A stretch of 64,000 nucleotides of DNA from a virus. The notes beneath the pieces were generated by a model that had not been told where the DNA came from, searched no databases, and saw nothing but the letters and a program-made list of their open reading frames with translations. The position numbers and the translations under genes were made by a program. The stretch lies in the IMG/VR virus record IMGVR_UViG_3300031920_000373, positions 1 to 64,000 of that record. The stretch is one strand, 5' to 3'. How positions within the stretch are numbered: the stretch's first letter is position 1; each line of letters begins with the position of its first letter. Below, piece after piece: positions 14,366 through 45,731 of the stretch.

Positions 14366-14395
14366 TTGACAGGTTACGTATTTTTATGTAATAAT
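14366..14395 (+). promoter_or_regulatory. Class I early-type promoter 2
   Basis: TTGACA, an 18-base spacer and TGTAATAAT followed by GTGTAT. It drives the ArdC-like gene. Confidence 0.75.
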
Positions 14396-22590: not shown

Positions 22591-23957
22591 ATATGAAACC
22601 TATAATTACCATAGGGAAGGGAGTCGTGGGTGAAAACTTGCCCACGGCTCTGATTAAAAAGATCAAGAAGGATCTTACCTTCAAAAATCCTGACTATGAA
22701 AATGCCATGAAATTCGGGAAATTTATTTCTGCGGATATGCCCTCCCATCTTCATTTATTTGATATTGAGGATGACAATGCATGGGTGCCAAGGGGTTATA
22801 TTCACTGGTTAATGAAGTGGATGCATAACAAAAAAGTTAAATTCACTTTGAGGGATAAAACCCTGCTCTTGAAACCACTGAATCTGAAATTTATAGGAAA
22901 ACTCAGAGACTATCAAGATGTAGCCATGACGCCTCTATCAAGGTATCCTTGTGGAGTTTTGGAAGCCGCAACAGGATCAGGAAAAACGGTTATAGGCATA
23001 AATATGATCGTAAAAAGACAGCAACCTACACTTGTAATTGTTCATAGCAAAGAATTAATGTACCAATGGAAGGATCAAATAAAATCTTTTATAGGATTGG
23101 AGGCAGGGTTAGTAGGGGACGGTAAATTCAATATACAACCTGTGACTATAGGAATAATTAACACAGTCAGAAACAAGGTAGAGCAATTAGAACCTCATTT
23201 TGGTCATATAATCTGTGACGAGGTACATAGGATAACCTCAGAGTCATGGGCAGGAACTATGCAAGGGTTCAGAGCGAGGTACACACTTGGACTTACTGCT
23301 ACTCCCTTCAGGGCTGATGGACTCGGAAACGCTATCTTTGCATCTATTGGTCCGCTAAGATGCACAATAAATAAAAAAGAATTACAAAAAAGAGGAACAG
23401 TTCTTACTCCTGATATTTACAGAATAAAATCAAAGTTTAATTATATGTTCCTAAATGATTATTCAACTATGATCTCAAGTCTTATTGAAGATACACAAAG
23501 AAACAATCTTATAGTCAGAGGAATTGCCGCAGATTTCAATAAGCACAATGAACATATACTGATAGTATCAGACAGACAGAAACATCTTAAAATCATGCAG
23601 GAAATGCTTCATAAAAAATATAATATTTTCGGACATATATTAACAGGAAGTGTTGCGGATAAAAAAAGAAAAACAATAATTGAGGAAGTAAAATCGGGTA
23701 AATGTAAAATACTATTTGCAACTACTTCTTTAATTGGTGAAGGGTTTGATCTTGACAAATTAAATTGTTTGTGTTTAGCTACTCCTATAAAGTACAGTGG
23801 CAGATTAATTCAAGCAATTGGGAGGATACTTCGTCCCGATAAAGATAATAAACGAAAAACTCCAAGAGTTTATGATATTAGGGATGAAAATGTAAGTGTC
23901 TTACAATATTCTGGGTATAATCGTGATAGGATTTATAAAAAGGAGTGGAATAGGTGA
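22584..23957 (+). CDS. SF2 DNA helicase (UvsW/RadD-like)
   Basis: A 457-residue superfamily 2 ATPase that probably remodels replication forks or recombination intermediates. Motif I is ATGSGKT (around residue 132), motif II is CDEVH, motif III is LTATPF, motif V is GEGFDLD and motif VI is QAIGRILRP. The start is TTG at 22584, six bases after GGGGGG, or ATG at 22593. The last third is more AT-rich than the first. The final 28 codons are repeated in divergent form at 24604-24687 behind an HNH element, so this 3' end may have been imported. Confidence 0.88.
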   Translation: MVNMKPIITIGKGVVGENLPTALIKKIKKDLTFKNPDYENAMKFGKFISADMPSHLHLFDIEDDNAWVPRGYIHWLMKWMHNKKVKFTLRDKTLLLKPLNLKFIGKLRDYQDVAMTPLSRYPCGVLEAATGSGKTVIGINMIVKRQQPTLVIVHSKELMYQWKDQIKSFIGLEAGLVGDGKFNIQPVTIGIINTVRNKVEQLEPHFGHIICDEVHRITSESWAGTMQGFRARYTLGLTATPFRADGLGNAIFASIGPLRCTINKKELQKRGTVLTPDIYRIKSKFNYMFLNDYSTMISSLIEDTQRNNLIVRGIAADFNKHNEHILIVSDRQKHLKIMQEMLHKKYNIFGHILTGSVADKKRKTIIEEVKSGKCKILFATTSLIGEGFDLDKLNCLCLATPIKYSGRLIQAIGRILRPDKDNKRKTPRVYDIRDENVSVLQYSGYNRDRIYKKEWNR

Positions 23958-24608
23958 AAAGATTAAATCTAAAAGGAATAAAAAGAGGGAAATTAACTTT
24001 TATTGAATTTTCACATATTGAAAATAAAAGTACATATTGGAAATGTCGATGTGATTGTGGTAATTTTATAACGGTAAAAGGAGCAGGAAAAACAAAATCA
24101 TGTGGGTGTTTGGCATTAAAAGCAAGAAGTATTAATGGGAAAAATAATGAAAATAAACAGTCTCCTATTGATTTCATAAAAACAAGGATAAAAACAAATG
24201 ATAAAACAGGTTGCTGGGAGTGGGCGGCTTCTCTTTTAGAAGGATATGCACGAATATCAGACAAAAGGGGGTCGTAAATCAGAAATAGCATCCAGGTATG
24301 TTTATGAACATATAAAAGGGATTGATCCGGGAAATAAATGTGTTTGTCATACTTGTGATAATCCCAAATGTGTTAATCCCAATCATTTGTTTTTAGGAAC
24401 ATATCTTGATAATTTTGAAGATATGAAAAATAAAAAAAGATCAGCATGTGGGATAAAAAATTTCAAAGCCAAATTAACTGAAAAAGAAGTGCTTCAAATT
24501 AGAAGATTACATAGGAAATTAAATATAAAAGAATTAATAGACATTTATGAGGTGGATGAGTCAACTATCCGGAGAGTAATTAAAAGAGAAACATGGAAAC
24601 ATATATGA
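23954..24608 (+). pseudogene. HNH homing endonuclease, frameshifted
   Basis: Two overlapping frames together give one HNH protein. The N-terminal part (23954-24277) has a Cys cluster (CRCDCGNF, KSCGCLAL) and CWEWAASLLEGYARI. The C-terminal part (from 24246) has VCHTCDNPKCVNPNHLFLGT, the HNH core, plus a C-terminal helix-turn-helix (LIDIYEVDESTIRRVIKR). They join in frame if one G of the GGGGG run at 24267-24271 is removed. It could be a real inactivating shift, slippage, or a sequencing error. It overlaps the helicase stop by four bases. Confidence 0.8.
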
Positions 24609-24687
24609 TCCACGGGATGATCGTGTTTCCGTTCTTCAATATTCAGGGTATAACAGGGACAGAATCTATAGGAAAAAAGGATGGTAA
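24604..24687 (+). pseudogene. Displaced 3' end of the helicase gene
   Basis: The 27 codons before TAA read YDPRDDRVSVLQYSGYNRDR and so on, and match the helicase C-terminus (YDIRDENVSVLQYSGYNRDR) at about 20 positions with different codons. It has no start of its own and begins exactly where the HNH frame ends. It is best explained as the original gene end left behind by the insertion. Confidence 0.85.
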
Positions 24688-24864
24688 ATGAGCCTAAATG
24701 AAGAGTATCACCTGGAGACGGGATTGCATTCCCATTATTTGGCAAAGGGAGGATCACACAAATACGGAACAAAAGGGTTAATATACACCCGTAAATATGT
24801 TTGGTGGTTGGAACTAAAAATTAAAAAACTCAGAAAAGAAAAACAGGATAAAAACAATTCTTGA
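24688..24864 (+). CDS. Small hypothetical protein (58 aa)
   Basis: ATG directly follows the old helicase stop (TAAATG), which suggests it was once coupled to that gene. The product has a basic C-terminus (LKIKKLRKEKQDKNN). Its end overlaps the next promoter. Confidence 0.5.
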   Translation: MSLNEEYHLETGLHSHYLAKGGSHKYGTKGLIYTRKYVWWLELKIKKLRKEKQDKNNS

Positions 24865-34582: not shown

Positions 34583-35695
34583 ATGAAAGCATCCATAACT
34601 AATGTAATAAAATTTGAGACCGCTCACCAGTTGACTGACTCTTACTCTGAGGAAGATAATACCTATACTTGCCCTGTGTGTAATAAGGAAGGAATAAAAA
34701 GCATATTTTCTCATTGCAGTAATACAGGTGATAGTGTTCATTTAAACTGGATACAAAAATTAAACGATGAAATAAATGAAGAAATTGACAATCTTTTTCC
34801 TGATTATATGCAAATGGAAATAAATTTGAAATTGCAGGAGATTTTACCCACCCTGTCTCCTAATATTATTGCAAATAAGATCAGAAGCAGAGCAAAGGAA
34901 ACAGGTATAAATACCAGAAAAGTATTAGGGAAATGTAGAACTGGGTTAAATAATCCTGTACATACGAAAGGAACAAAGGATAAAATATCTAAATCAGTCA
35001 AGAAGAAGTGGGAAGAAGGTTCTTATTCAGATAGAATAAATGGAATGCAAGGGAAATTAGGGCCTTTATCAGGAAGATACGATCCATCAATTCATACCAT
35101 AGAACATAAAGGTCTATATTATTTTAATTCTTTTTTATCTGAATTTCAAGATATTTCAGTGTGTTCAAGATGTAAGGGTGTTGAAAATAAAATTAATGTA
35201 CACCACATTGACGAGGACCATAAAAACTTTCTACCGTCAAATCTTGAGCCCTTGTGTGTGCTCTGTCATATGTCCAATCACTACAAACAAGTTAAGAAGC
35301 CATTCGTTACTATAGGAAAAGAATTTACATTTGCGGCGGCACATCAATTACCAAACCACCAAGGGATGTGTCAATATCTCCATGGACATGAATGGAAGCT
35401 TAGAATTGAGTTGAAAAAGAGGGTAGATTTTAAAACAGGAATGGTAATGGACTTTTCTGATTTGAAAAAAATAGTGAAGGAGCATGTAATATCTATACTT
35501 GATCATAACACCTTAAATGAGATAATATATAATCCGACAGCCGAGAATATCCTAATATGGATCTGGGAAAAACTAATGTTTGAAGGCCTGCTCAAGGGAA
35601 TTTATAAAATTCATTTATGGGAATCATCCGATAGTGTAGCAGTACTTGACCAGAAAGGGATGTTATCCGTTTTTACTGAAAAAGGAGTAAAATAA
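34583..35695 (+). CDS. queD: QueD (6-carboxytetrahydropterin synthase) fused to an HNH element
   Basis: QueD converts dihydroneopterin triphosphate to 6-carboxytetrahydropterin in deazaguanine synthesis. Residues 243-370 form a complete QueD domain with zinc ligands in FAAAHQL and YLHGH and the catalytic Cys in MCQYLHGH. Residues 1-24 (KFETAHQLTDSYSEE) look like the start of another QueD copy. Between them lie a CPVC knuckle, a NUMOD3-like segment (GLNNPVHTKGTKDKISKS) and an HNH core (CSRC, HHIDEDHKN, LCVLCHMSNH). There are no intein splice motifs, so the protein may act as a fusion or be started internally near 35270. Coupled to queE. Confidence 0.85.
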   Translation: MKASITNVIKFETAHQLTDSYSEEDNTYTCPVCNKEGIKSIFSHCSNTGDSVHLNWIQKLNDEINEEIDNLFPDYMQMEINLKLQEILPTLSPNIIANKIRSRAKETGINTRKVLGKCRTGLNNPVHTKGTKDKISKSVKKKWEEGSYSDRINGMQGKLGPLSGRYDPSIHTIEHKGLYYFNSFLSEFQDISVCSRCKGVENKINVHHIDEDHKNFLPSNLEPLCVLCHMSNHYKQVKKPFVTIGKEFTFAAAHQLPNHQGMCQYLHGHEWKLRIELKKRVDFKTGMVMDFSDLKKIVKEHVISILDHNTLNEIIYNPTAENILIWIWEKLMFEGLLKGIYKIHLWESSDSVAVLDQKGMLSVFTEKGVK

Positions 35696-38924: not shown

Positions 38925-40838
38925 ATGAAAACTCCAGGCAGAGAAGATGTTTCTCTAATGCTTGATTCCGGTGCTTTCTCTGCCTGGATGAAACAAGAGG
39001 AGATATCAGTCGAGGACTACGGTAAGTTCCTTCAGCAACATGGAAATGATTTTGATCTGATTGTTAACCTTGATGTAATTCCGGGCAAATTCGGGCAGAA
39101 GGAAATACCCGAAGCTGAAATGATCAAGTCCATTGAACAAGGCTGGAGAAATTATTACAGACTAATTGAAATGGGAGTCCCTAAGAATAAGCTCCTTCAT
39201 GTATTTCACCAAGGAGAGCCCTTTCACTATCTTGAAAAAATGGTAAAGGAGATGGAATATATAGGAATCTCTCCTGCAAATGATAGAACCACAAAAGAAA
39301 AGAAAAAGTGGCTGGACGAGTGCATGAAATATATTGTGGATAGTAAGGGAAAAGCCCAAATCAAATTCCACGGGTTCGGTATGACTTCTTTGCACTTGAT
39401 CTGGCGTTATCCTTGGTTCTGTATGACAGAAGAGGATCATGAGGTATTAACAAAAACTGGATGGAAATTTAGAGAAGATTTATCCATAGGGGAGGAGGTA
39501 TTAACATTCGATAAAGGAGCATCTAAGTGGGAACGTATTTTAGATATTCCTACATTTCCAGTAAAAGATATTGATATCAATGTAATGGAAAATAGAAACT
39601 TTTGTGCCAAAGTTACAGATAATCATAATTGGATTACTTGTCCTCAATATAATAGAGGAAATAATTGGAAGTGGAAAACAACACACACACTGAACTCCAA
39701 TGATTGTATACCTAGAATAGGAAAATACACTTTCCCTGAAACTAAAATATATATGGACAGTTTCATTGAATTATTGGCTTGGTTTTGGACTGATGGAACA
39801 ATCAACAAAAGGGAAAAATATAATCAGGATAGTATTTCTATTTATCAATCTGAAAGTGCTAATTCCGATAAATGTAAGATGATCCAGGATTTGTTAAATT
39901 ACAGTGGAGAACCGCATTGTAAAAGTGTGTCAAAAGAGGACAATTTAGCAAATTTTGAAATGTATGGAGACATTACTAAGGCTATATTAGAATTTGCTCC
40001 ATTTAAAAAACTACCTTTAGATTTTATATTTGATCTTACTAAGGAACAGTTACAGAAATTTGTAGATATTTGTGTCCTGGCTGATGGCACAGACACAAAA
40101 CTGGTAAGACGTGATTCATTTAATATTACAGTTTCAAGACAGGTGAAAAAAGACAATCTTGAGGTTCTCCGTATAGCTTGTTTATTGTTGGGTATACCTA
40201 CTTCTATTTCTTATGGAAACCAAGGGTATAAGACTTTACAATCATCCTCAGTTGATTATGTGTATAATCATTCACTTAAAAAACACAAGGAAAAATATAC
40301 AGGAAATATATGGTGTTTACAGGTGCCAAGTAAAGCTTTTTTTACAAGATGTGACAATAAGATATATGTCACAGGAAACTCAATTGACAGTACTACATGG
40401 GTTTTGGTTGGTGCTATGGGGGGTGTTATGATGCCTAAAATTAAGTATGGCAGATACACTTACAGGCAATCACCAATCATACTTCCCATCACCACAAAGA
40501 ACGACATAAAAAAACCTTTCCATTATCAAAATCTATCAGAAATAGAACAAAGCAAGGTGCAACGATACTTTAATGATCGTGGCTTTGATGTCAAAACCCT
40601 GGAAACGGAAGGAATGGAGAGAGACAGAGCCAACATGAGGTTCTTTCTTGATCTTGAACAAACCTTGACTGATACAAAGGTGTACTTTGCTGGTAACTTT
40701 CCCATGCTTCATAAGATGGAGAGAGAGTTCAAGACAATGGATTTGGCTTTAAAAATAACTGATAAGTGGAGAAGGCTGGGCTCTTATTATCACCAGAACT
40801 ATCTCCTTAAATTACTTGATCTAAAACGGAGGAAATAA
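38925..40838 (+). CDS. dpdA: DpdA-type DNA guanine transglycosylase, intein-containing
   Basis: DpdA enzymes are TGT relatives that exchange guanine in DNA for a 7-deazaguanine base. The spliced product is 317 residues. It carries the first catalytic motif LDSGAFSAW (Asp14), NLDVIPG, HVFHQGEPF, and after the intein SIDSTTW, whose Asp is the second catalytic residue. A 320-residue intein separates KFHGFGMTSLHLIWRYPWF from SIDS. It closes the deazaguanine operon. Whether the substrate is preQ0 or preQ1 cannot be read directly; QueF next door favours preQ1. Confidence 0.88.
   Translation: MKTPGREDVSLMLDSGAFSAWMKQEEISVEDYGKFLQQHGNDFDLIVNLDVIPGKFGQKEIPEAEMIKSIEQGWRNYYRLIEMGVPKNKLLHVFHQGEPFHYLEKMVKEMEYIGISPANDRTTKEKKKWLDECMKYIVDSKGKAQIKFHGFGMTSLHLIWRYPWFCMTEEDHEVLTKTGWKFREDLSIGEEVLTFDKGASKWERILDIPTFPVKDIDINVMENRNFCAKVTDNHNWITCPQYNRGNNWKWKTTHTLNSNDCIPRIGKYTFPETKIYMDSFIELLAWFWTDGTINKREKYNQDSISIYQSESANSDKCKMIQDLLNYSGEPHCKSVSKEDNLANFEMYGDITKAILEFAPFKKLPLDFIFDLTKEQLQKFVDICVLADGTDTKLVRRDSFNITVSRQVKKDNLEVLRIACLLLGIPTSISYGNQGYKTLQSSSVDYVYNHSLKKHKEKYTGNIWCLQVPSKAFFTRCDNKIYVTGNSIDSTTWVLVGAMGGVMMPKIKYGRYTYRQSPIILPITTKNDIKKPFHYQNLSEIEQSKVQRYFNDRGFDVKTLETEGMERDRANMRFFLDLEQTLTDTKVYFAGNFPMLHKMEREFKTMDLALKITDKWRRLGSYYHQNYLLKLLDLKRRK
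39420..40379 (+). other. Intein with LAGLIDADG domain inside DpdA
   Basis: A 320-residue in-frame insertion starts with Cys (CMTEEDHEVLTKTGW), has a block B TDNH and ends NKIYVTGN before Ser+1. LAGLIDADG-like helices are LLAWFWTDGT and FVDICVLADGT. The penultimate residue is Gly instead of the usual His, which some active inteins tolerate. It interrupts the protein one residue before the second catalytic motif, so unspliced protein should be inactive. Confidence 0.9.
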
Positions 40839-42053: not shown

Positions 42054-45000
42054 ATGGGATTTTTCACTAAATCCCAGTTATCTAAGCGGTCCGAGGTCAA
42101 GGTTGATGTCAATGACTTGGAATCGGATTGCTTGGCTTGTGGGTTATTCAAAGACACAATCCATCCAAAGATGGAATACTCAGGACAAGGTCAAAAGAAG
42201 ATTCTCATTATAGGTGAATTTTCAAGTGACGAAGATGACCAATATGGTCAACATTTCTATGGAGAACGAGGCGATCCATTAAGACAGCAATTAAGGTTCA
42301 ATAATGTCAATATGAACAAGGATTGCTGGAAAGTTAACGCTGTTCGATGCAATCCTGATGGACTTAATTTACCCAGTCCTGGCCAGGTTCAAAACTGCTT
42401 CCCGTATATCAAAAAAATGATCAAACAGTTAAAACCTAAATTGATACTTCTTCTGGGTGATTTGGCTATTTCTTCATTGTACGGAAAGGATTTTTCAAAC
42501 AGAAGCATACACAGATGGAGAAAGTATGTTATACCCGATCAAGAGTTCAGTTGTAATGTTATTCCTCTATATCATCCCTATCATCTTTTCCGTCAATCCA
42601 AGAAAAAGAAGAAGAAAGACAAAAACCTCGAAAGTGTATTCAATCGGGATCTAAAATTTGCTCTCAGACAGTTGGAACGCCCGGTTTTAACGACAAAGAA
42701 CTATGAAAGCAATGTCACACTGTTAACAGACTTCAACCGCGTTAAAAAGCTGTTAAATCGAATCCTCAAGCGTAAATCAAAAATCTATTTTGATTATGAG
42801 TCCACAGGACTAAAGCCTTTCAGAAAAGGCCATAAGATTGTGACCATTGGTGTTGCTGTATCTGCCTCAAAAGCGTTTGCGTTTCCTTATCAGTGGAAAA
42901 GTTTCTGGACTCCCTCTGAATTAAAGGTTATAAAGAAACTCTGGAAAAAGATTCTCAGGGATGATGAAATCCTAAAGATGGCGCACAATTGCTTTTCAGG
43001 TGATACAAAATATATAACTAAAGAAGGATTGAAGTCCTTTATTGATACAGAGAACACTACCCAAACAGTGTGGACAAAGGAAGGATGGAAGGATGCTAAA
43101 GTTAAATGTTATGGAAAAGATCATCTTTCTAAAATAGTAGTAGGCCCTGAACTTAGAAGTAGATCCAAGATTAAAAGAACTATTCACAGCACTGAAAATC
43201 ACCGTTGGATTGTAAAAAGAAAATTCAATCATTGTTACCCTAATCCCTCTACCTTTAAAACTATAGAGGTTACCACAGACCAATTGAAATTAAGGGATAA
43301 TATAATTTCGGAAATGCCCGAATTCACAATTGATCAAAATACAGAGGCTTTTAGACATGGATTAATCCTTGCGGATGGAGGTCGTTCCAGTAAACATTCC
43401 CTTCATTTTCAAATCAGACTATGTGGTAAAAAAGAAAAGTATAAAGACATTTTTCCTAAATATACGTACCCCCTTTCTGCTAATGGTGATCCGGTTGTGA
43501 ATTACTATAAAGCCTCTTGTGATATGAAGAAAGTTCCTGAGAATCCTACGGCAGAGTATGTAGCAAACTTTATAGCAGGATGGGATGCTGGTGACGGCAC
43601 AGATTCAGCAACTGGAAGATCAAGAGTCATAACTACCTTTAATAAAGAACACGCTACATGGTTAAAGGACAATGCAGAACTTGGTGGATGGAAATGTACT
43701 GGATTTTCAGAACATATTAATTCGAAAGACTTTGATGGGAATTATATAGACCCGCACCCTTACTGGATGATAATATTAACAAAGGAGAAAGTAAACTGGA
43801 CAGTAAAAGAAATAAAACACAAGGATAGATACGAGAAAGTGTACTGTGTTTCTTTACCAAAAGAGGAATTTACTCTCCAATATGGTATTTACACAAGGAA
43901 TTGCAAATTTGAGCAAGTGTGGTCAAAGGTTATGTTCAATGTAATGCCTAAGATTCACTTTGATACTATGATGGCAGAACATATCTTGGACAATAGATCA
44001 GCCTCAACAGGTTTGAAATTTCAGACGTTCATAAGGTTCGGTGTTAAGCCCTATGATAAAGATATTGCTCCCTTCCTAAAAGCAAAGAATGGAGAATTTA
44101 ATACCATAGAAAAAGCACCATTCAAAGAGTTATTAACATACAATGGACTTGACTGCATTTATGGATGGATGGTATACGATAGACAGATCCTTGAAATAAC
44201 CAAAAGACGGGACGTAAAGGATGCAATGAAAAGCGTTCTCGGTGAGGTTGATGCTCCCGAAAAAAGCCTACTTGGTGCTTACAATTTCTTCATGCGTGGT
44301 AACGAACAGATGGCTATTATCCAGCTTAACGGGATCAATATGGATTCCATTTATTATCAAAAAGCTGAAAAGAATCTGGAAAAGAAAGTCAAGGAGTTAA
44401 AGCACGGATTGGAGAATGGTCGTGAAGCGGAAATGTTTCATAAAATGTTCGGACGACCAATCAGGATCACATCCAATCAAGATCTCGGAAAACTATTCTA
44501 TGAAGTTCTGGGAAAAGATCCCGTCTATACTGCTAAAGGGGGGTATAAGACAGATAAAATGACTCTGGAGAGTTTGAATCTACCTTATGTAAAAAACCTC
44601 CTTAAAATGAAAAAGTACGAGAAAGCCAAGGGAACTTATCTTGGTCAGTTTGCAAGAGAGATATTTAGGACAAAGATGTATCCATTCTGGGATCTTAATA
44701 TTCCTGTCAGTTATAGGAGTTCATCATCAAAACCAAACTTTCAGAATATTCCTAAACGTGATGCAGAGATAAAGGCAATCATTAGAATGGGAATTGTTCC
44801 GAAAAAGGGATGTGTGTTAAGTGAAATTGATTTTTCAGGTGCGGAGGTTATAACTTCCGCCACTTACCACAAGGATCCAACATTTATTGCCTACTTGACA
44901 GAAAAAGATGCATCAGGTGAGTTGATAAATGATATGCATAGAGATAATGCAACTGACCTTTTGATGTTACCTCCTGATATGCTTGAGAATCCTAAGTATT

Positions 45001-45731
45001 CAAGGGACCAGAAAAAGTTAATTAAAAAGATTCGATTCTTTGCCAAGAACAATTGGACTTTTGCTCAGTTCTACGGTGATTGGTTTGGTTCGTGTGCTCC
45101 TATGTTCTGGGAGAATGTTATTGAGGTGGACTTAGAACTTCCTAATGGCATGACTTGCCGAGAATGGCTTGAAGAAAAAGGCATCTATGAACTCGGAGAA
45201 GTAAAAGATGGAACTCCCACAGAGGGAAGCTTCATGGAGCATTGTGCCCATGTCCAAGAAAAGATGTGGAATGAACGATTTCCTGTATATACTCAGTGGA
45301 AGAAGGATATAGTTGAGAAATATAGAGAACATGGTTTTATTCCCAATCATTTCGGTTTCAGATTCACAGGATATATGTCCGATAATCAGTGTACAAACTA
45401 TCCCATCCAGTCAGCAAGTTTCCATCTGTTGGTTCATACTCTGATTGAGGTACAGAAGTTCATTGATAAAAATAACCTGAAAACAAAGATAGTTGGGCAA
45501 ATTCATGATAGTATTATCAGCAATGTTCCTGAAAATGAGATCAAATTCTACCATGCAGGTGTTAACAAGATTGTAAAAGGCCTGATGAATGAATTTAAGT
45601 GGTTGATAATTCCAATGGAAATCGAAGCTGAAATAACCAAGTTAAGAGAAGATGGAGGAAACTTTTCTGACCTTAGAGAAGGTGACCCTGATAATATGGA
45701 TTATGAAACAATCTGGAAGGAGGCAGCATGA
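42054..45731 (+). CDS. UDG-family A DNA polymerase fusion, intein-containing
   Basis: The replicative polymerase, 921 residues after splicing. Residues 1-215 resemble a family 4 uracil-DNA glycosylase (CLACGLF, ILIIGEFSSDE, NAVRCNPDG, LLGDLAIS, PLYHPYHLF). A 3'-5' exonuclease domain follows, with IYFDYESTGL (Exo I) and HNCKFEQ (Exo II, split by the intein). The polymerase domain has motif A EIDFSGAEV, the finger-helix region KKIRFFAKNNWTFAQFYG and motif C GQIHDSIIS. The N-terminal fusion may let the enzyme sense uracil in template DNA. Codon use is uniform outside the intein. Confidence 0.92.
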   Translation: MGFFTKSQLSKRSEVKVDVNDLESDCLACGLFKDTIHPKMEYSGQGQKKILIIGEFSSDEDDQYGQHFYGERGDPLRQQLRFNNVNMNKDCWKVNAVRCNPDGLNLPSPGQVQNCFPYIKKMIKQLKPKLILLLGDLAISSLYGKDFSNRSIHRWRKYVIPDQEFSCNVIPLYHPYHLFRQSKKKKKKDKNLESVFNRDLKFALRQLERPVLTTKNYESNVTLLTDFNRVKKLLNRILKRKSKIYFDYESTGLKPFRKGHKIVTIGVAVSASKAFAFPYQWKSFWTPSELKVIKKLWKKILRDDEILKMAHNCFSGDTKYITKEGLKSFIDTENTTQTVWTKEGWKDAKVKCYGKDHLSKIVVGPELRSRSKIKRTIHSTENHRWIVKRKFNHCYPNPSTFKTIEVTTDQLKLRDNIISEMPEFTIDQNTEAFRHGLILADGGRSSKHSLHFQIRLCGKKEKYKDIFPKYTYPLSANGDPVVNYYKASCDMKKVPENPTAEYVANFIAGWDAGDGTDSATGRSRVITTFNKEHATWLKDNAELGGWKCTGFSEHINSKDFDGNYIDPHPYWMIILTKEKVNWTVKEIKHKDRYEKVYCVSLPKEEFTLQYGIYTRNCKFEQVWSKVMFNVMPKIHFDTMMAEHILDNRSASTGLKFQTFIRFGVKPYDKDIAPFLKAKNGEFNTIEKAPFKELLTYNGLDCIYGWMVYDRQILEITKRRDVKDAMKSVLGEVDAPEKSLLGAYNFFMRGNEQMAIIQLNGINMDSIYYQKAEKNLEKKVKELKHGLENGREAEMFHKMFGRPIRITSNQDLGKLFYEVLGKDPVYTAKGGYKTDKMTLESLNLPYVKNLLKMKKYEKAKGTYLGQFAREIFRTKMYPFWDLNIPVSYRSSSSKPNFQNIPKRDAEIKAIIRMGIVPKKGCVLSEIDFSGAEVITSATYHKDPTFIAYLTEKDASGELINDMHRDNATDLLMLPPDMLENPKYSRDQKKLIKKIRFFAKNNWTFAQFYGDWFGSCAPMFWENVIEVDLELPNGMTCREWLEEKGIYELGEVKDGTPTEGSFMEHCAHVQEKMWNERFPVYTQWKKDIVEKYREHGFIPNHFGFRFTGYMSDNQCTNYPIQSASFHLLVHTLIEVQKFIDKNNLKTKIVGQIHDSIISNVPENEIKFYHAGVNKIVKGLMNEFKWLIIPMEIEAEITKLREDGGNFSDLREGDPDNMDYETIWKEAA
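42990..43901 (+). other. Intein with LAGLIDADG domain inside DNA polymerase
   Basis: A 304-residue in-frame insertion begins CFSGDTKYIT and ends QYGIYTRN before Cys+1. LAGLIDADG-like helices are HGLILADGG and FIAGWDAGDGT. A block B STENH is present. Penultimate Arg replaces the usual His. It splits the Exo II motif between HN and CKFE, so splicing is required for proofreading. Confidence 0.92.

Follow-up and report, generated by a model that had tools for sequence, protein, structure and literature searches.

A UvsW/XPB-like helicase gene of an uncultured phage with a probably imported 3' end, an HNH element and a stranded second tail

The gene for a UvsW/XPB-like DNA helicase in an uncultured phage (IMG/VR record IMGVR_UViG_3300031920_000373) is followed directly by an HNH endonuclease element, behind which the C-terminal tail of the helicase is encoded a second time. 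The layout, an apparently foreign first tail and HNH, an apparently native second tail, and the variable presence of the HNH among related phages can be read from the sequence, and we consider it quite probable that the helicase gene of an ancestor of this phage received a diverged replacement 3' end through a free-standing HNH homing element. Positions given below are those of the window, i.e. the entire 64,000-nucleotide stretch analyzed here (positions 1 to 64,000 of the 101,489-base record), unless they are said to refer to the record or to another sequence; the helicase gene, both tails, the HNH reading frames and the gene that follows them all lie on the plus strand.

The helicase gene (22593-23957) is assigned on the basis of Pfam matches (ResIII, 8.5e-25; Helicase_C, 9.4e-14), membership in PHROG_16 (DNA helicase, 6.8e-70) and sequence matches to UvsW and XPB structures. 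Its open reading frame closes with a 28-codon tail, YDIRDENVSVLQYSGYNRDRIYKKEWNR followed by the stop codon (copy 1, 23871-23957), which is the tail in use and the one linked to the HNH. Given that three residues of the tail, D428, R444 and Y448, are invariant across distant UvsW-like phage helicases, the tail is expected to be needed, and its loss should break the gene. The helicase stop codon TGA (23955-23957) is overlapped by the GTG start codon of the HNH element (23954), and the stop codon TGA of the latter (24606-24608) falls within the first two codons of the second tail, YDPRDDRVSVLQYSGYNRDRIYRKKGW with its own stop codon (copy 2, 24604-24687), which is stranded without an in-frame start codon. 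Copy 2 is followed by a gene for a 58-amino acid protein (24688-24864) that is homologous to the gene located after the helicase and an HNH scar in one of the relatives (L081).

The two tails share 20 of 24 residues, and over the 24 codons compared, 12 of the 20 identical residues are encoded by different codons; the DNA identity of the two copies is 67%. When the helicase was searched against the record, just two places matched, namely the two tails, and copy 2 aligned with helicase residues 420-451 at 69% identity over 32 residues (E = 3.8e-9). When all reading frames of the 101,489-base record were scanned for protein-level duplications at short distance, the tail pair ranked first (E = 1.9e-10), no other local duplication on the same strand being stronger; a thymidylate synthase pair discussed below was found in the same scan (E = 1.8e-7). 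Thus, the second tail, recoded, start-less and directly behind the HNH, that had been noticed in a sequence-only reading of this DNA is confirmed. The duplication scan also picked up a recurrent intergenic sequence resembling TTGACTTTTATGTAAAATTATGTAAGAATATG, near positions 14380, 18490, 21570 and 24860, which is probably a repeated promoter.

The composition of the helicase gene and the affinities of copy 1 point to a hybrid origin, with a native 5' part and an imported 3' part. At the DNA level, copy 1 is 79% identical to the tail of a relative (L080) compared to 67% identity with copy 2; the protein ranking is the opposite, copy 1 being nearer to copy 2 than to this relative. The tails also differ at their ends (KKEWNR in copy 1, RKKGW in copy 2), and the -EW ending of copy 1 is of a type seen in several relatives. 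Along the helicase gene, GC3 drops from 0.35 to 0.18 at position 23337 (permutation p=0.0055), the largest change among the reading frames tested; the native mean of the genome is 0.35, and HNH genes show values of 0.15-0.18. The AT-rich, presumably imported part thus spans 23337-23957, with the boundary at about 23337 by GC3 and at 23366 when all bases are used. Because copy 1 is nearer to a relative than to copy 2 and because about 620 nt of the gene have HNH-like GC3, the 3' end of the helicase gene is probably imported. An attempt to locate the import boundary through identity to relatives along the helicase gave no such boundary, and since the identity to L070 is unchanged across the GC3 break, the left boundary rests on composition. 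The mapping of codon use that had been proposed for finding this boundary, run here as GC3, thereby placed it well upstream of the tail. The replacement 3' end that the sequence-only reading had attributed to the element is supported as a foreign, recoded one acquired together with the HNH, but it amounts to approximately 620 nt of the helicase gene rather than the tail alone; the hybrid helicase reading frame is complete, in agreement with the earlier suggestion that the target gene was kept intact.

The HNH element consists of two reading frames. The first (23954-24277) encodes the N-terminal part and is 61% identical to the N-terminal part of the HNH in the relative G031 (L075/L082); the second (24246-24608), in another frame, encodes the HNH domain and the C-terminal part ending in WKHI, and is 59% identical to the HNH in L075. 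A one-base frameshift in a run of G near 24270 splits the two, so that the element placed behind the helicase by the earlier reading is indeed there but is not a single intact reading frame. The second frame gives Pfam scores of 3.4e-6 for zf-His_Me_endon and 2.3e-5 for HNH_3, just below the cut-off; with scores around the Pfam cut-offs and clear homology to the HNH of G031, an HNH nuclease domain is present. In contrast to the broken HNH of the window, the reading frames of the G031 HNH and of the HNH at the thymidylate synthase gene are intact; the HNH of the window may be dead, or the frameshift may be a sequencing error.

No close relative was found among named phages. Uncultured relatives were obtained through the polymerase (85% and 60% identical) and an SSB-like gene, and their records were then searched for the helicase, with further members added from an alignment search; a scan of viral_contigs with the helicase alone and with a degenerate DNA pattern of the tail yielded no matches. 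In all 12 relatives with the conserved tail motif, inspection of the sequence past the stop codon revealed a single tail. The arrangement that would speak against a replacement, two tails in relatives that lack the HNH, was looked for among these 12 relatives, and as each carries one tail, the outcome was negative. The HNH is sporadic at this site: it is present in G031, reduced to a scar in G026 and absent from the other relatives examined. In G031, a full-length homologous HNH, about 60% identical over both halves, begins a few bases past the helicase stop codon, with no evident second tail in the region behind it; because the G031 HNH lacks an obvious second tail, such a tail does not seem to be essential to this family of elements. 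In G026 (L073, L081), a short scar of the HNH C-terminus, IKRRKSWKHI followed by a stop codon (about 4770-4860 of L081), comes after the helicase and adjoins the same gene that in the window lies downstream of copy 2, which we take as likely evidence of past loss of the element. Other insertions are also seen in this group: intein-like sequences interrupt the helicases of relatives at the Walker A motif (L073) and at the DECH motif (L074, L075), and in the window, they are found within a gene product at 38925-40838 and, in the DNA polymerase, at 42054-45731.

The helicase of the nearest empty-site relative is 68% identical in protein sequence; as no empty-site relative is close enough, the case for copy 2 as the native end is an indirect one. 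A second locus of the same genome provides the direct comparison. A thymidylate synthase-like gene (record positions 67347-68195; Pfam, 1.6e-9) ends in HLYSYVWEIAELVRGKTSKEFAKELSK; behind it come an intact HNH gene (L048:4195-4797) and, next to that, a stranded end of 54 codons beginning with MKNLYNYVWEIAETVRGRSAEEFKAEMGK; the entire locus, with a foreign 3' end, HNH and stranded native 3' end, occupies record positions 67347-68961 (L048:3347-4961). The close relative G013, whose polymerase is 85% identical, has an uninterrupted thymidylate synthase gene in the same gene context, and over 78 nt its DNA is 77% identical to copy 2 compared to 60% for copy 1, with discordant sites favoring copy 2 as the G013-like end by 18 to 5 (p = 0.011). 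Because G013 matches copy 2 better, copy 2 is identified as the native thymidylate synthase end. The junction sits at the H-[IL]-Y motif conserved in thymidylate synthase, and no GC3 break was detected within the thymidylate synthase gene. The native end is thus apparent directly for thymidylate synthase and indirectly for the helicase, for which the proposal that the native end was stranded finds support in the single tails of the 12 relatives, the DNA affinity of copy 1 with L080, the GC3 break and the thymidylate synthase case. Two other traces involve thymidylate synthases: a short HNH-like N-terminus, perhaps an older remnant, is located just 5' of the gene (L048:3160-3312), and in L098 (G017), a C-terminal piece of thymidylate synthase stands behind a ThyX-like gene, an arrangement that looks as though ThyX had taken the place of the older gene.

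We surveyed 150 distinct HNH loci for matches of at least 22 bits between the stretch that immediately follows the HNH stop codon and the sequence upstream. Eight loci reached this score, versus 0.5 expected from mismatched pairs, and five of these were kept after manual reading. Two show the 3' form, at genes for endonuclease I (L168; EWCQKNGIAWSKA / DWCEKNDIAWSKA) and for a DNA methyltransferase (L227; IAAKRMQQECLPL / IAAKRMLQEVLPL), where copy 1 has lost its stop codon; the other three show a mirror 5' form, at genes for RusA (L185), SSB (L160) and a UvsW-like helicase (L234). In four of the five kept loci, the HNH stop codon and the beginning of the second copy are about 10 nt apart or less; in L160, the matched stretch starts about 40 nt past the HNH stop codon, and the second start codon overlaps that stop. 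Rejected as end duplications were L134 (a tandem paralogue), L112, L126, L131 and L237 (tandem HNH genes), and L214 and L188 (read as noise). At 11 HNH loci of isolated phages, no end duplication was found, so the duplicated-end layout is in the minority.

The window itself contains a further HNH arrangement, a QueD reading frame (34583-35695) that comprises, in one frame, a QueD-like N-terminal stub beginning with MKASITNVIKFETAHQL, an HNH domain and a complete second N-terminus beginning with KPFVTIGKEFTFAAAHQL; it is possibly another mirror 5' form, all QueD relatives found being distant. At several HNH loci (L185, L160, L278, L284, L286 and L287, T7-like phages included), the codons of the conserved C-terminal W-R-H motif (TGGAGGCA) double as a Shine-Dalgarno-like sequence, GGAGG, which precedes the start of the following gene by a few bases, and GGAG with a start codon at suitable spacing is present in 18 of the 86 HNH loci with W-x-H.

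In the mechanism that we favor, the donor would have been a related, more AT-rich phage lineage with an HNH directly behind the helicase gene, as in G031 today. In a co-infected cell, the endonuclease would have cleaved the helicase gene of the recipient where the conserved tail begins, at about 24604, and repair would have copied the 3' part of the donor helicase gene together with the HNH into the break, with the left crossover near 23337, while the recipient's own tail would have been pushed behind the HNH stop codon. Because the donor tail was diverged at synonymous sites, the hybrid helicase would be complete and the recipient tail displaced. An independent event of the same kind would have occurred at the thymidylate synthase gene. 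Later rounds of transfer may use the stranded tail as their right homology arm; the recoded tail may withstand cutting and may have diverged too far to recombine with the stranded one. We infer the cutting, the position of the cut, the repair route, the immunity and rescue as the selected function; the integrity of the gene could instead be an ordinary by-product of co-conversion. Two loci with the same layout suggest a natural "cut and rescue" route into essential genes. Tentatively, and somewhat doubtfully, we propose that the loci represent a recurrent home-and-rescue class in phages, in which the HNH up to its stop codon would move as one unit with a recoded end of the invaded gene; this end would keep the essential gene working and escape the element's own cutting, without recombining with the stranded end. 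Such a class would include the 3' form at the genes for the helicase, thymidylate synthase, endonuclease I and DNA methyltransferase, and the mirror 5' form at those for RusA, SSB, the UvsW-like helicase and probably QueD.

An alternative that has the import step in common with this explanation, but disagrees about a function of the layout, is ordinary homing, from a donor with the helicase, its stop codon and the HNH but without a second tail. The right end would then have been joined by microhomology, with the leftover tail a functionless accident and the hybrid gene a product of co-conversion. We regard this as a serious possibility of somewhat less than even weight: co-conversion by free-standing phage endonucleases is established (PMC2988022), the HNH of G031 lies behind the helicase with no evident second tail and only the scar is seen in G026, and the 3' form is found in just 2 of the 150 sampled HNH loci and in none of the 11 from isolated phages. 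However, at both genes of this phage as well as in L168 and L227, no more than about 10 nt separate the right junction from the HNH stop codon, which suggests a defined end of the element over random joining, and there are two cases in one genome.

Duplication of the tail in situ, upon insertion of the HNH and with later divergence of the copies, would fit the reciprocal best protein match of the two tails (83% of 24 residues), but we consider it improbable and largely refuted: the DNA of copy 1 shows 79% identity with another phage compared to 67% with copy 2, its terminus is different and of a type seen in other lineages and lies within a block of foreign GC3, and the comparison with G013 at the thymidylate synthase gene places copy 1 clearly farther away than copy 2. 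Misassembly of two strains in the metagenome, which might be suspected in an uncultured virus contig with a homopolymer frameshift, appears very unlikely, given that the right junction shares few bases, too short for overlap assembly, and that the three-part layout recurs at the second gene and in unrelated contigs. HNH genes often sit in group I introns, and other genes of this phage seem to contain inteins; nevertheless, a self-splicing intron, or a split protein, spliced or assembled, in which copy 2 would be a working second exon, seems hardly credible. The helicase reading frame is complete with its own stop codon 5' of the HNH, copy 2 repeats rather than continues the helicase, the HNH is a separate reading frame with its own stop codon outside any intron or intein, and no Rfam intron was found near the helicase or the thymidylate synthase locus, where the search returned one weak, unrelated match only.

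If the import explanation that we favor is correct, it shows how an essential gene can survive the entry of an intron-less endonuclease gene into its coding part: the newcomer supplies a working end spelled with other codons. Past homing could then be searched for by way of foreign 3' or 5' gene ends, and hybrid replication genes whose composition changes abruptly would be explained. Such a replacement-end route resembles synthetic home-and-rescue drives, the design of which includes a recoded remainder of the target gene, and is already known from fungal mitochondria. The synthetic drives (PMC7968924) share with the phage loci a nuclease in an essential gene combined with rescue; being engineered, Cas9-based and used in insects, they are similar by analogy of design only.

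In the literature searched, most subscription journals being outside its coverage, we found no phage case of a replaced and stranded gene end. Free-standing phage endonucleases spread by double-strand break repair with co-conversion, according to the sections consulted of a review of T4-like endonucleases (PMC2988022), and the seg and mob genes share with the present case an intron-less endonuclease gene beside or within a replication gene; in mobE, as in the HNH of the window, the endonuclease start codon overlaps the upstream stop codon. The T4-like insertions are described as lying between genes or splitting a gene in two; nowhere does the text of the review mention duplication, and the sections consulted show no replaced and duplicated gene end. 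Lactococcal Skunavirus and Xanthomonas phages carry several HNH genes in variable places, with degenerate copies, and marker exclusion has been demonstrated for some of the Skunavirus HNHs; the portions consulted of these studies report no replacement gene end (PMC12724721, PMC2248197).

The closest parallel comes from mobile open reading frames with a foreign C-terminus in fungal mitochondria, in Allomyces atp6, Glomus atp6, atp9, cox2 and nad3, and Rhizopus atp9 (PMC3630166). In these as in the phage loci, the endonuclease gene occupies the 3' part of a core gene, with a foreign, in-frame C-terminus upstream and the native C-terminus downstream (PMC3630166). In the fungal genes, the native end matches relatives better, as it does here, directly at thymidylate synthase and indirectly at the helicase, and the DNA identity of the two ends is also similar, 63.5% in Glomus atp6 (PMC3630166) compared to 67% and 63% in the phage. 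Expression has been demonstrated for the fungal reading frames (PMC3630166), and the phage targets, unlike the fungal ones, are replication and nucleotide genes. Because the endonuclease is an HNH in a bacterial virus, as opposed to LAGLIDADG or GIY-YIG enzymes in mitochondria, the phage element appears to work like the fungal mobile reading frames without being a member of that group.
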